From positions 3,691,001 to 3,755,000 of the forward strand of contig NZ_CP030104.1 of NCBI RefSeq assembly GCF_003269425.1: a stretch of 64,000 nucleotides of DNA, read 5' to 3'. This document shows positions 3,913 to 10,155 of this stretch, one piece after another. The notes under the pieces are model-generated. The model saw nothing but the letters and a program-made list of their open reading frames with translations, was not told the DNA's origin and did not search any database. This DNA comes from Flagellimonas maritima. Its GTDB lineage: Bacteria; Bacteroidota; Bacteroidia; Flavobacteriales; Flavobacteriaceae. Both the position numbers and the translations under genes were made by a program. Every line of letters starts with the position of its first letter. Position 1 is the first letter of the stretch.

Positions 3913-5193
3913 TTATGCCTTTGGTTTGCATTTCCCTACAGTTAAAAGTTCGTTCCATTGCGTAGTATATCGCGGGCTTCGTTCTTCTTTTATCAATTCC
4001 CACTGTTTCATGCGTTTGCCCAACGTACTTGAACGCACTTTGGCCTTTCCAAACTTTGCGTTGAGTTTGTCCACGGTTTTGGACAATACAGAAAGGCTGT
4101 TAAGATTTGGTCGAAATAGATTGCCCTGCACCTCGTTCTCAGGTACGATTCCCGTAACGTCTACACCAACTTTTTTATAGCGATATCCTAGCTTAAAAAT
4201 CTTTCTTAATGCCTTATTGGCCTCTTTTATTAGAATAAATGTGCTATTGGTGGGAACTTCCAGTTTTAGCGTAATACGATTGGCATATTGTTTATCATAG
4301 TCACTGTGATAATTGGTCGTAAGAAAAATGGTGAGTTGGCTGGCACAGGTTCCTTGGGCTCTCAATACTTCGGCCACCTCTGTTATATAAAATGCACAGG
4401 CCTCCTCTATAAGCCCAAGGTCGGTCAGCTTTTTTCCAAAAGACTTTGCAGTACCGATTCCTTTTTTCTTCTTGGGCTCCATTACCATTTCAATAGCTTT
4501 TTCCCCATTCAGTTCACGCCAAAGACGCTCGCCTACAACGGTCATCTCCTTACGTACCCATGCTAGCGGCAACCGGGTAAAATCATGCGCATCATGGACA
4601 TTTATGGATTTTAGTCGCTTGGCATGCTGTTTTCCTATGCCCCATACATCATCGATTGTACACCACTTGAGCAATTCTTCTTCACTTTGCTCGGAATCCA
4701 CCACACAGACATGTTGTAAATCAGGTAATTTTTTAGCCATACGGTTGGCAACTTTGGCCAATACTTTGGTCCGTGCTATTCCCACGCCCACGGGCAGGCC
4801 TGTATACTGGAGAATTGTGTCCTTGATTTTATGCCCATGGGCTTCAAGCTCATCTCTTGGAACAGTACTCAAATCCAAAAACGACTCATCAATACTGTAT
4901 ACTTCGACCTTTGGGGAAAAGGTCTTCAAAATGTTTATTACACGCTGGGACATTTCTCCATACAACGTGTAGTTGGAAGAAAAAAAATTGACCCCATTGG
5001 TCAATAACTGGTTCTTTATTTTAAAGATAGGTTCGTACATGGGTATATGTGTCATAGCTTTTGCTTCCTTGTTGGCTGCAATCACGCATCCATCATTATT
5101 GCTCAATACTACAATGGGTTTACCTTTTAGGTCTGGACGAAAAACCGCTTCACATGATGCATAAAAACTGTTGCAGTCAACTAGCGCTACCAT
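3913..5193 (-). CDS. umuC: DNA polymerase V catalytic subunit UmuC (Y-family)
   Basis: A 426-residue translesion DNA polymerase. Y-family catalytic acids are intact: Asp6 in MVALVDCNSFYASCE, and Asp102/Glu103 in YSIDESFLDLS. The helix-hairpin region (IDDVWGIGKQHAKRL) and little-finger region follow, and VQGNLF near residue 360 resembles the beta-clamp motif QLxLF at the same place in E. coli UmuC. The ATG at 5193 overlaps the last base of the umuD stop (TAATG), so the two are translationally coupled. The polymerase looks functional although its UmuD partner lacks protease residues. Length and motifs fit UmuC rather than DinB. Confidence 0.97.
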   Translation of the reverse strand: MVALVDCNSFYASCEAVFRPDLKGKPIVVLSNNDGCVIAANKEAKAMTHIPMYEPIFKIKNQLLTNGVNFFSSNYTLYGEMSQRVINILKTFSPKVEVYSIDESFLDLSTVPRDELEAHGHKIKDTILQYTGLPVGVGIARTKVLAKVANRMAKKLPDLQHVCVVDSEQSEEELLKWCTIDDVWGIGKQHAKRLKSINVHDAHDFTRLPLAWVRKEMTVVGERLWRELNGEKAIEMVMEPKKKKGIGTAKSFGKKLTDLGLIEEACAFYITEVAEVLRAQGTCASQLTIFLTTNYHSDYDKQYANRITLKLEVPTNSTFILIKEANKALRKIFKLGYRYKKVGVDVTGIVPENEVQGNLFRPNLNSLSVLSKTVDKLNAKFGKAKVRSSTLGKRMKQWELIKEERSPRYTTQWNELLTVGKCKPKA

Positions 5194-5558
5194 TAGGTTC
5201 TATGGATTATATAAGTGACCGTTCCCCATATGGAAATTGAACTATCTCTCGGTTCGTCCTGCAAGCGTATTAATTCAAATTCCCCATCAATAATGGCCAA
5301 TATTAAAGTATTCCTTTTTACAGGTAGAGAACGATCCACGATTAGCACATCATTATGATCAACGTGAAGGTTCAAAAACTGTCTTCCCTTCACTCTTATA
5401 AAAAATGTTGCATCACTGTTTAAAACAAGTTCTTGGTGCAAGTTTATTGTTGGTTCCAAGTAATGGGTCGCAGGACTTGGAAAGCCTGTTTGTTTGGATA
5501 CTTCGGGAGCATGCCTGTGATCGACCTTTTCAATTTTGCCGTGCTTGATGATTTCCAT
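5193..5558 (-). CDS. umuD: UmuD-like polymerase V accessory protein lacking the Ser-Lys protease dyad
   Basis: A 121-residue S24/LexA-fold protein upstream of umuC. ATG 5558 is preferred over TTG 5564 because it makes numbering run level with E. coli UmuD. Family landmarks are clear: TGFPSPATHYLE (cleavage region), a FFIRVKG strand, DVLIVDRSL and DGEFELIRLQ. The catalytic positions are all changed: the Cys24-Gly25 cleavage site is Thr24-Gly25, nucleophile Ser60 (GDSM in E. coli) is Gln60 in GRQF, and general base Lys97 is Ile97. It should therefore be unable to cut itself in the known way. The reading frame is intact and coupled to umuC (TAATG), arguing for a retained non-protease role such as binding UmuC. 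Confidence 0.88.
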   Translation of the reverse strand: MEIIKHGKIEKVDHRHAPEVSKQTGFPSPATHYLEPTINLHQELVLNSDATFFIRVKGRQFLNLHVDHNDVLIVDRSLPVKRNTLILAIIDGEFELIRLQDEPRDSSISIWGTVTYIIHRT

Positions 5559-5561
5559 GTT

Positions 5562-5569
5562 CAAATTTA
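5562..5569 (-). promoter_or_regulatory. Candidate -7 box of umuDC
   Basis: TAAATTTG on the minus strand fits the Bacteroidota -7 consensus TAnnTTTG. It lies 3 nt before the umuD ATG, so transcription would start at about the start codon (leaderless or nearly so). No TTG is found at the expected -33 distance, which makes the call weak; a regulated promoter with a poor -33 box is possible. Confidence 0.35.
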
Positions 5570-5601
5570 TGGATTAAATCCATTTAATTGGAATTATTCC
5601 A
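5569..5601. promoter_or_regulatory. Two related palindromes, candidate umuDC operators
   Basis: ATGGATTAAATCCAT (5569-5583, 7+1+7) and TGGAATTATTCCA (5589-5601, 6+1+6) are both perfect inverted repeats around a single central base. They share the form TGGAWTNAWTCCA, with centres 19 bp apart. The first abuts the candidate -7 box and the second covers the -33 region, the usual place for repressor sites. Neither resembles the E. coli LexA box. The binding protein is not known from the sequence. Confidence 0.5.
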
Positions 5602-8427: not shown

Positions 8428-8937
8428 TTACTTCGACTCGCAGATAAATTTTATATTCAAATCCCTTATGAATTCAAAATCGTCAATCCATTTAACATTC
8501 ATATTATCGCAGACGTGAGGAATTTTAATTTTGGTTTGTTTCTTAAAATAGTCTTTCGTCTCCTTAGTCACTACAATTGCATTTTCTTTAATTGCGTGAG
8601 CGATTACCCAAGGGTCAGCTTTTGAGTGAATTCCGTTATTTGAAACTAAATATTTATGACTTGGATTAGATGCATATATATCTTTTAAACAGTTTGTTAC
8701 TTCTCCGTCAATTTTTCTAATCGGAATATCACTTTTTTTTAACCATTCAAATAAATCGTCCTCGCCTTTCTCTATTTCTTCATAAACTAATTCGGGAATA
8801 AAAACTACACCTTTTTTACCCAATTCGTTTAAAACCTCCCAATAGGAAGGACAAATTTCAGGTGAGTAATATTTTTGCCAAGCTTGAATAAGAATATTGG
8901 CATCAATACAGTAAATTACTTTTTCATCTTCGAACAT
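8428..8937 (-). CDS. DUF4411 PIN-domain protein, candidate toxin nuclease
   Basis: A 169-residue PIN-like protein. It has the acidic residues expected of a PIN nuclease: Asp12 in YCIDANILIQAW, Glu53/Glu54 in LVYEEIEKGED and Asp108 in SKADPWVIAHA; AIVVTKETKDY forms the last conserved block. These fit DUF4411, a PIN-like family often placed next to Xre/ImmA-type genes in toxin-antitoxin-like pairs. Its ATG overlaps the stop of the upstream regulator (TAATG), showing translational coupling. A role as an RNA-cleaving toxin is inferred from family and context. Confidence 0.82.
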   Translation of the reverse strand: MFEDEKVIYCIDANILIQAWQKYYSPEICPSYWEVLNELGKKGVVFIPELVYEEIEKGEDDLFEWLKKSDIPIRKIDGEVTNCLKDIYASNPSHKYLVSNNGIHSKADPWVIAHAIKENAIVVTKETKDYFKKQTKIKIPHVCDNMNVKWIDDFEFIRDLNIKFICESK

Positions 8938-10109
8938 TAGGCAAGCAGTTTTTCAAATTTTTGGAATTTATTAATCTGCGTGTTAAGAAGATTACTTGCA
9001 ATTGATGGTGACAACGAACCGTTATTAAAAGAATCCATTACAATTCTCGTAAATAGTTTGCTGTTTTTATTTAGGCGAAGAAGGTAAGCGTCTGGTCCGC
9101 CTTTTCTTTCTCTTTGTTTTTCCTTTTTTATCTTTTCTCTTTCCAAAAACTTCTCAAATTCATTTTGAGCATCTAGCTTTAGAATTTTATATTGAGATTG
9201 GGAAATTAAGTTTAAGTTTAAAGCACGAACCAATAATGCAAAAGAACTTATACCGAGTTCTTTAGCTTGTTTAAAAATCAAATCATTCGAATCAAATGTA
9301 TCTGTGCCCAATTGGGTAATCAATTCCCTTGGCATTAGTGCATTGGCTGCAACTTGATTACAAAACAATTCTACAGGATGAAATTTTGATTTAGGTTTAT
9401 CAGTAAAATCAATATCTATTTCATTTGAGATACCTGATTTAGCTATCCAAATATGTGCTAATTCGTGTACTAATGTAAATAGTTGTGGTGCATTCCAATT
9501 TTTTGAATTCACAAATATAAAAGGGGCGAATTTGTCAGCAATCGCAAAACCTTGAATTAAGTCTCTATCTAGAATTAAATGTGAATGCAAGTAGCTAGCA
9601 CGAGATATAAATATTCCCGCAGTTTCTGCTTTGTCAATCCATTCGTTTATCGGTGTTTTCTGATAATTATCTGGACTAATTTTTAAGGTGTCCAATATAT
9701 CTCTTGCAACAATTTCTGGATTATCATTGATAGAATATTTCCCAACAAAAGGAAGTTTGTCTTCGCCAATTTCTTCGTATAATTCACTTATCCAATTCTG
9801 TTTTTCTTGAACATCACGAATAATAAATAATGATGCTGTATCTAATTTTTGCGCATCATCTCTTCGATAATCTTGTAGCAGTTGAAAATCTTTTGGTATT
9901 TCTGGTAAAAAGAAAAGAGAAAATGGTCTTCTGAAACTTTTTGCCAAGATTTTAGCTTGTCGAATTGTCGGAAAATCATTTCCGCTCTCCCAAGTCAAAT
10001 ATCTTTCAGGCGATACAGAAACTTTTTTGGCAGCATCTTTAACAGAGATATTAGCGGACTCTCTTGCCCACTTTAAAATCTCGGATGTTATGAATGCTTT
10101 ATCGGCCAT
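8937..10109 (-). CDS. Xre-type HTH and ImmA/IrrE metallopeptidase-domain regulator, candidate antitoxin
   Basis: A 390-residue protein with an N-terminal Xre helix-turn-helix (residues 10-65; SVKDAAKKVSVSPERYLTWE) and a central ImmA/IrrE (COG2856) domain with zinc motif His215-Glu-Leu-Ala-His219 (LVHELAHIW) and third ligand region VELFCNQVAANALMP (Glu247). The C-terminal 130 residues are helical and basic. Such proteins repress their own operon and may cut a partner regulator. ATG 10109 is preferred to TTG 10121. The pair with the PIN gene sits between conserved flavobacterial genes, as expected for a mobile defence or stress module. Confidence 0.88.
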   Translation of the reverse strand: MADKAFITSEILKWARESANISVKDAAKKVSVSPERYLTWESGNDFPTIRQAKILAKSFRRPFSLFFLPEIPKDFQLLQDYRRDDAQKLDTASLFIIRDVQEKQNWISELYEEIGEDKLPFVGKYSINDNPEIVARDILDTLKISPDNYQKTPINEWIDKAETAGIFISRASYLHSHLILDRDLIQGFAIADKFAPFIFVNSKNWNAPQLFTLVHELAHIWIAKSGISNEIDIDFTDKPKSKFHPVELFCNQVAANALMPRELITQLGTDTFDSNDLIFKQAKELGISSFALLVRALNLNLISQSQYKILKLDAQNEFEKFLEREKIKKEKQRERKGGPDAYLLRLNKNSKLFTRIVMDSFNNGSLSPSIASNLLNTQINKFQKFEKLLA

Positions 10110-10155
10110 TGAATTCAACAAAAATAAGATTATTTAGAACATTTATATCTCGCTT

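Follow-up and report, generated by a model that had tools for sequence, protein, structure and literature searches.

Cleavage of UmuD is the textbook brake on SOS mutagenesis. In the window analysed here, a stretch of 64,000 nucleotides of the Flagellimonas maritima genome (contig NZ_CP030104.1, positions 3,691,001 to 3,755,000), a umuD-like gene coupled to umuC encodes a protein in which the cleavage site and both catalytic residues are replaced. This raises the question of how a DNA polymerase V is restrained, and how it becomes active, when its small subunit lacks the means to cut itself. Positions in the window are given in Table 1.

Table 1. Features of the umuDC locus, in window coordinates.
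Feature	Position	Strand	Basis
umuD-like gene, 121 aa, protease-dead (T24, Q60, I97)	5193..5558	-	open frame
Gln60 codon at the place of the catalytic Ser	5379..5381	-	alignment to E. coli UmuD
Ile97 codon at the place of the catalytic Lys	5268..5270	-	alignment to E. coli UmuD
N-terminal arm, residues 1-24; H16, A17, P18, K22 against P16, L17, F18, V22 of E. coli	5487..5558	-	column counts (80 no-dyad, 72 dyad rows); pLDDT about 50 or lower
Residues 23-35, QTGFPSPATHYLE, mostly near-invariant, spanning the old cleavage site	5454..5492	-	column counts, 80 rows
umuC, 426 aa, Y-family polymerase, catalytic D6, D102, E103	3913..5193	-	Pfam, residue check
DUF4113 part of UmuC, residues 370-419: RecA-NT-like motif and C-terminal tail	3937..4086	-	PF13438, 53.3 bits
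Element TAAATTTG, like the Bacteroidota -7 promoter element, abutting the inner box	5562..5569	-	sequence likeness
SOS box, perfect 13-bp palindrome TGGATTTAATCCA (GGA-N5-TCC)	5570..5582		motif published in PMC8565304, in the parts seen
Second SOS box TGGAATAATTCCA, 19 bp further upstream, perfect 13-bp palindrome	5589..5601		GGA-N5-TCC

A UmuD homologue without its protease

The UmuD S24 domain is present in the window protein both in sequence, where the Pfam profile search assigns Peptidase_S24, and in fold, the core predicted by AlphaFold2 matching UmuD'. Among solved proteins E. coli UmuD is the nearest; it aligns without gaps over residues 23-106 (E 1.2e-14) and places Thr24, Gln60 and Ile97 of the window protein opposite Cys24, Ser60 and Lys97. 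These are the substitutions named in the original prediction, and the retained GFPSP, LIVD and DGEF segments and the open frame that it described were likewise recovered. Its statement that the gene aligns without shift holds up to about residue 100; about 18 residues are then missing. That deletion after position 98, the replacement of the arm sequence and the spread of the loss through a whole clade go beyond what the original prediction had noticed. The Cys/Ala-Gly cleavage site and the Ser60-Lys97 dyad are absent from the window protein and throughout its clade. The protein thus lacks the catalytic Ser and Lys by which an autoproteolytic S24 peptidase is recognised in sequence, and its sequence rules out self-cleavage by the known mechanism, as had been proposed. 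An intact second UmuD was sought across the genome, a single contig of 3.77 Mb, and none was found: the PF00717 search returns two S24 proteins, the window UmuD and a 270-aa XRE-S24 repressor. Family searches give one RecA and four Y-family polymerases.

The loss is shared by a clade

Relatives were gathered by scanning GTDB genomes (best 80 loci kept) and by searching 397 genomes from the same family. The resulting alignment of 153 rows (28, 80 and 43 loci, the window protein and E. coli UmuD) was assembled by similarity to the window protein and is therefore no random sample; near-duplicates are included. We call a row dyad when it has both Ser60 and Lys97, and no-dyad otherwise. By this definition 72 rows, E. 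coli included, carry the dyad and 81 do not, the latter comprising 80 flavobacterial rows, which represent 68 distinct proteins, and one row from Caldisericia (L132). The P1 residue is Thr in 80 and Ser in one of the 81 no-dyad rows, against Ala in 68 and Cys in four of the 72 dyad rows. Counted over the 68 distinct flavobacterial proteins, Thr occupies P1 in 67 and Ser in the other, Ser60 is found in 10 and Lys97 in eight, and none has both. Alignment at positions 24, 60 and 97, proposed as a check of the substitutions, thus extends them to the relatives, and equal losses in so many distinct proteins exclude a frameshift or sequencing error. A database search reached 175 proteins at E <= 0.001; among the 120 listed, the window's own included, P1 is Thr in 118 and Ser in two. 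The part from residue 98 onwards measures 22-29 aa in the flavobacterial no-dyad proteins against 39-50 aa in the dyad rows.

In the FastTree phylogenies the 80 flavobacterial UmuDs fall together with a support of 0.968 and their UmuC partners with 1.0. On 42 UmuC rows (16 no-dyad, 24 dyad, the window's and L132), a quick run of IQ-TREE likewise unites the 17 flavobacterial rows with a support of 100. The search of the family gave 40 matches of at least 131 bits in 39 genomes, the next match standing at 106 bits, and 31 of the 39 genomes with a no-dyad UmuD have no further UmuD-like match. One of the other eight, G427, has two no-dyad UmuDs (L135 and L170), one of them in a subclade without boxes. 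Among 35 congeners, 13 carry a dyad UmuD and none a no-dyad one; the window copy would therefore be either acquired or a relic. Horizontal insertion was probed through synteny, and the neighbouring gene at 2257-3075 matches the congeners weakly, at 46 bits or less. A phage origin was considered and rejected, the best phage matches being at most 37% identical. Elsewhere in the window, at 8428-10121 on the minus strand, a DUF4411 protein adjoins an XRE-M78 (IrrE-like) protein matching PADLOC RmrA profiles, a pair that looks like a toxin-antitoxin system. A search of the open-licence literature found no description of natural protease-dead UmuD clades.

Selection and the remodelled arm

The no-dyad UmuD is under purifying selection. 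Its dN/dS (NG86) has a median of 0.111 over 49 pairs (range 0.031-0.318), or 0.125 over 14 disjoint pairs; near-duplicates were kept both in the dN/dS pairs and in the identity means that follow. Compared with 37 dyad rows of Bacteroidota, the no-dyad rows show equal mean pairwise identity in the core (0.527 against 0.519) and relaxation of the active-site loops (0.306 against 0.758), whereas the arm, residues 1-24, is tighter (0.431 against 0.304), as are residues 25-40 (0.796 against 0.610).

The sequence conserved here is a different one. The dyad UmuDs have Pro16 in 55 of 72 rows, a hydrophobic residue at position 17 in most rows and at 18 in many, and Val or Ile at position 22 in 62 of 72. 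In the flavobacterial clade the stretch around P16-L17-F18 gives way to the consensus RHxPEVSKQTGFPSPATHYxE: position 16 is His in 72 of 80 rows and never Pro, position 17 has Ala, Arg, Thr or Lys in most rows, position 18 is Pro, Ala, Val or Gly and in none of the 80 rows aromatic, and position 22 is mostly Lys (50/80). Q23 and T24, each found in 79 of 80 rows, are followed by G25 and F26; A30, T31, H32, Y33 and E35 occur in all 80. The length of the arm is equally constant, with 24 residues before Gly25 in 77 of 80 rows, the window's among them, and 23 in the other three, taking as start the in-frame ATG nearest to 24. A start at or next to Gly25, as in phage P1 HumD, is not seen in the window protein. 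AlphaFold2 confidence is low over residues 1-40 (block means 50 or lower) and higher over the core, residues 51-121 (73-92). An arm that is strongly conserved and predicted to be disordered points to a strand that binds a partner.

UmuC and the operon

The stop codon of umuD and the start codon of umuC overlap by one base (TAATG), and umuC lies directly downstream of umuD at all 81 no-dyad loci (80 flavobacterial and L132). The catalytic Asp6, Asp102 and Glu103 that the original prediction had read in UmuC are confirmed, and they recur in all 77 of the no-dyad-type UmuC partners long enough to count; the remaining four of the 81 comprise three at contig ends and one (L082) with an internal stop. 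That stop in L082 lies beside the catalytic acids and marks either an error or a dead copy. Of the two elements joined in the DUF4113 part, PMC6511836 describes, in the parts seen, the RecA-NT-like motif as contained in the domain and the C-terminal tail of E. coli UmuC as binding UmuD'.

Dyad-type umuD genes of the family (L007-L021, L023, L029, L030, L172-L175, L180-L199) mostly follow umuC on the same strand (order C-D at 36 of 39 loci), the reverse of the no-dyad operons. L029 and L030, from two congeners, represent a third type, a 124-aa UmuD that has Cys24 and the dyad and whose arm is about 12 residues long; two GGA-N5-TCC boxes precede their umuC.

SOS boxes and an intact repressor

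The element TAAATTTG resembles TAnnTTTG, which we take to be the Bacteroidota -7 promoter consensus; TAnnTTTG occurs no more than 30 bp from the start in 62 of the 80 no-dyad rows. GGA-N5-TCC is described in parts of PMC8565304 as the SOS motif of Bacteroidetes, where the LexA analogue is a phage-type S24 repressor. At least one such box lies within 100 bp of the no-dyad umuD in 66 of 80 rows (55 of the 68 distinct proteins) and at least two in 51, of which 35 repeat the 19-bp spacing; the expectation by shuffling, which preserves base composition only, is about 0.2-0.3. In the same family, four of the 34 dyad loci that could be used have boxes, although 150 bp were searched there and 100 bp in the no-dyad rows; these 34, 14 of them from congeners, are what remains of 39 loci after five were dropped for want of upstream DNA. 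The 14 no-dyad rows without a box include a whole subclade, L163-L170. The genomes of that subclade show the repressor strongly in G285, G293, G427 and G439, weakly in G149, G251 and G351, and not at all in G183.

The genome contains 11 sites of a stringent form of the box, WTGGAWWWWWTCCAW, compared with one of the reversed pattern. Eight of the 11 lie upstream of umuDC, of two DNA polymerase IV-like genes and of an rSAM_PA0069 gene, or in the promoter shared by the repressor and rSAM_link_UDG. Another lies 95 bp before a gene that resembles, by eye, one for a SusD-type lipoprotein, and the remaining two have no ORF starting in reach among those of 90 aa or more, the minimum for inclusion. The XRE-S24 repressor itself (L001/L200) has three boxes before its own gene and keeps the Ala-Gly bond, the Ser and the Lys (AAAGYP, GDSM, LVKK). 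The window umuD accordingly belongs by sequence to the GGA-N5-TCC regulon, having boxes in its promoter and a cognate XRE-S24 repressor gene in the same genome. The repressor was found in 34 of the 39 no-dyad genomes, in 31 strongly, and among 30 repressor loci read, boxes precede the gene in 29 and GDSM is kept in 29. The proposal that control of mutagenesis lies at transcription is well supported by the two boxes before umuD and by an intact S24 repressor bearing the same boxes; the repressor would bind the umuD boxes and leave them after damage.

Comparison with known systems

Relative to the UmuD/UmuD'-UmuC system (Pol V) of E. coli, the clade lacks Cys24, Ser60 and Lys97, has its arm stretch replaced, and is missing about 18 residues after position 98; the S24 phage-type repressor and GGA-N5-TCC boxes stand in place of LexA. 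UmuD 3A, an E. coli mutant said to go back to Beuning in 2006, reportedly keeps Ser60 and Lys97. It is a laboratory mutant, whereas in the flavobacterial clade arm and active site have changed together. According to parts of PMC5342242, UmuD 3A (T14A L17A F18A) is non-cleavable and keeps the full-length arm; the weak hold of its arms on the globular domain is the reason given there for calling it a UmuD' mimic. At its three altered positions, 14, 17 and 18, the clade departs from E. coli as well. HumD of phage P1 is likewise a member of the UmuD family needing no cleavage, with an SOS repressor site in front (annotated as a LexA site). It starts M-G25 and is annotated as complementing UmuD'. 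HumD has no arm, and its Ser and Lys are by eye still in register; in the flavobacterial protein the arm is kept and the catalytic residues are gone. The stretch read around humD carries no annotated umuC, in contrast to the flavobacterial operon. The Bacteroidetes XRE-S24 LexA analogue of PMC8565304 shares the box, the kind of repressor and a regulon of dinB, radical-SAM repair genes and umuDC, as far as the parts seen describe it; those parts do not mention a umuD lacking the protease.

Among bacteria, a short UmuD assigned by its records to Caldisericia (L132, P0122) has a P1 Thr, no Ser-Lys dyad and a shortened part after 97, and L132 has umuC downstream, as in the flavobacterial clade. 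The arm is missing, however: these two proteins, with P0121 and P0123 (87-89% identical to L132), start four residues before Gly25, in contrast to the 24 of the flavobacterial arm. FastTree places the L132 UmuC outside the flavobacterial clade and groups its UmuD with the clade (0.93), and in the AU test on UmuC the joining of L132 with the clade is not rejected (p 0.55). As the two trees differ and given this p value, independent loss in Caldisericia is not claimed. Other UmuDs without the dyad are P0125, P0127, P0134, P0142, P0148 and P0152. L132, P0121-P0123, P0125 and P0152 are all armless, 101-107 aa long and from Caldisericia where named. P0124 (97 aa) is similar to the armless relatives and also lacks the GFPSP segment.

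Interpretation

The locus probably encodes a Pol V with a UmuD that is synthesised in a UmuD'-like form, RecA control having shifted to cleavage of the repressor and to RecA binding by UmuC. The self-cleavage switch of the small subunit would have been lost permanently, and control by damage would act one step earlier: RecA filaments would induce the XRE-S24 repressor to cut itself and leave the two boxes before umuDC. UmuD, synthesised once the repressor has gone, would join UmuC uncut and in the UmuD'-like state. Its arm lacks the stretch for docking on the globular domain of UmuD itself and probably lies across UmuC instead. RecA would probably act one step later as well, as the activating third subunit recruited through the RecA-NT-like motif of UmuC. 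UmuD 3A, HumD and the Caldisericia protein L132 lend support to the UmuD'-like state as precedents, and the suggestion of a permanently active form, made in the original prediction, gains by analogy from the likeness of the remodelled arm to UmuD 3A, the UmuD' mimic described in the parts of PMC5342242 seen. Several observations count against the interpretation. A protein simply born as UmuD' might be expected to lose its arm, as HumD and L132 did, and the 24-residue arm is conserved in 77 of 80 rows. The 14 box-less rows, including L163-L170 with a strong repressor in some genomes, weigh in the same direction, as do the boxes at four of 34 dyad loci and the internal stop in one of 81 umuC frames.

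The same full-length arm, more conserved than in the dyad relatives, would also suit a protein that behaves like uncut UmuD, restraining or storing UmuC as a checkpoint rather than serving as an active subunit of Pol V, with polymerase activity either absent or dependent on something else. In agreement with this, mutagenesis was low with a non-cleavable E. coli UmuD shortened by 17 residues and lower with other non-cleavable forms, as reported in parts of PMC5342242. Such a role is nevertheless unlikely, given that Pro16 and the aromatic residue at 18 are absent in all 80 rows, so that the docking stretch of the arm itself is gone, that UmuC is catalytically intact in every partner counted, and that the 31 genomes with only a no-dyad UmuD would have no active form at hand. 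It appears more improbable still that another protease removes the arm in trans and UmuD' is made by a different enzyme. The near-invariance of Thr24-Gly25 and its surroundings is what a recognition site would show, and the arm is predicted to be disordered; conservation, however, runs on both sides and past the old cut site to residue 40, which a binding arm fits equally, and the operon in the window codes for no candidate protease.

A catalytic centre that has moved, with another nucleophile or base sustaining self-cutting, is very improbable. Ser60 survives in the 10 proteins mentioned above, and Arg or Lys occupies position 98 in 60 of the 68; the latter is likewise common in UmuDs with the dyad (68/71), and positions 57-64 hold no conserved Ser, Thr or Cys, in addition to the residues gone after 98. 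Relatives with a catalytic residue displaced to a nearby position, which had been named as an outcome that would overturn the prediction, were thus not seen. Loss of three catalytic residues together might also reflect a decaying gene or a sequencing artefact, a reading deserving almost no credence in view of the 68 distinct relatives, a dN/dS of about 0.1, open frames and the coupling to umuC.

The clade may represent a second design of Pol V, an idea to which we give somewhat less than even credence. The uncut arm would be a permanent docking strand for UmuC, the polymerase would be assembled ready on synthesis, and the RecA-sensed protease of UmuD would have been abandoned since the promoter is already under the guard of a RecA-sensed repressor with the same fold; the loss might have occurred more than once in bacteria, the arm being dropped altogether elsewhere. 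A natural clade that lacks cleavage and is under strong selection makes the purpose of cleavage beyond timing accessible to experiment, and with it the role of an uncut arm on UmuC. For structural work, the clade is a source of Pol V complexes that are naturally non-cleavable, and in such genomes the label 'S24 family peptidase' need not mean a peptidase.
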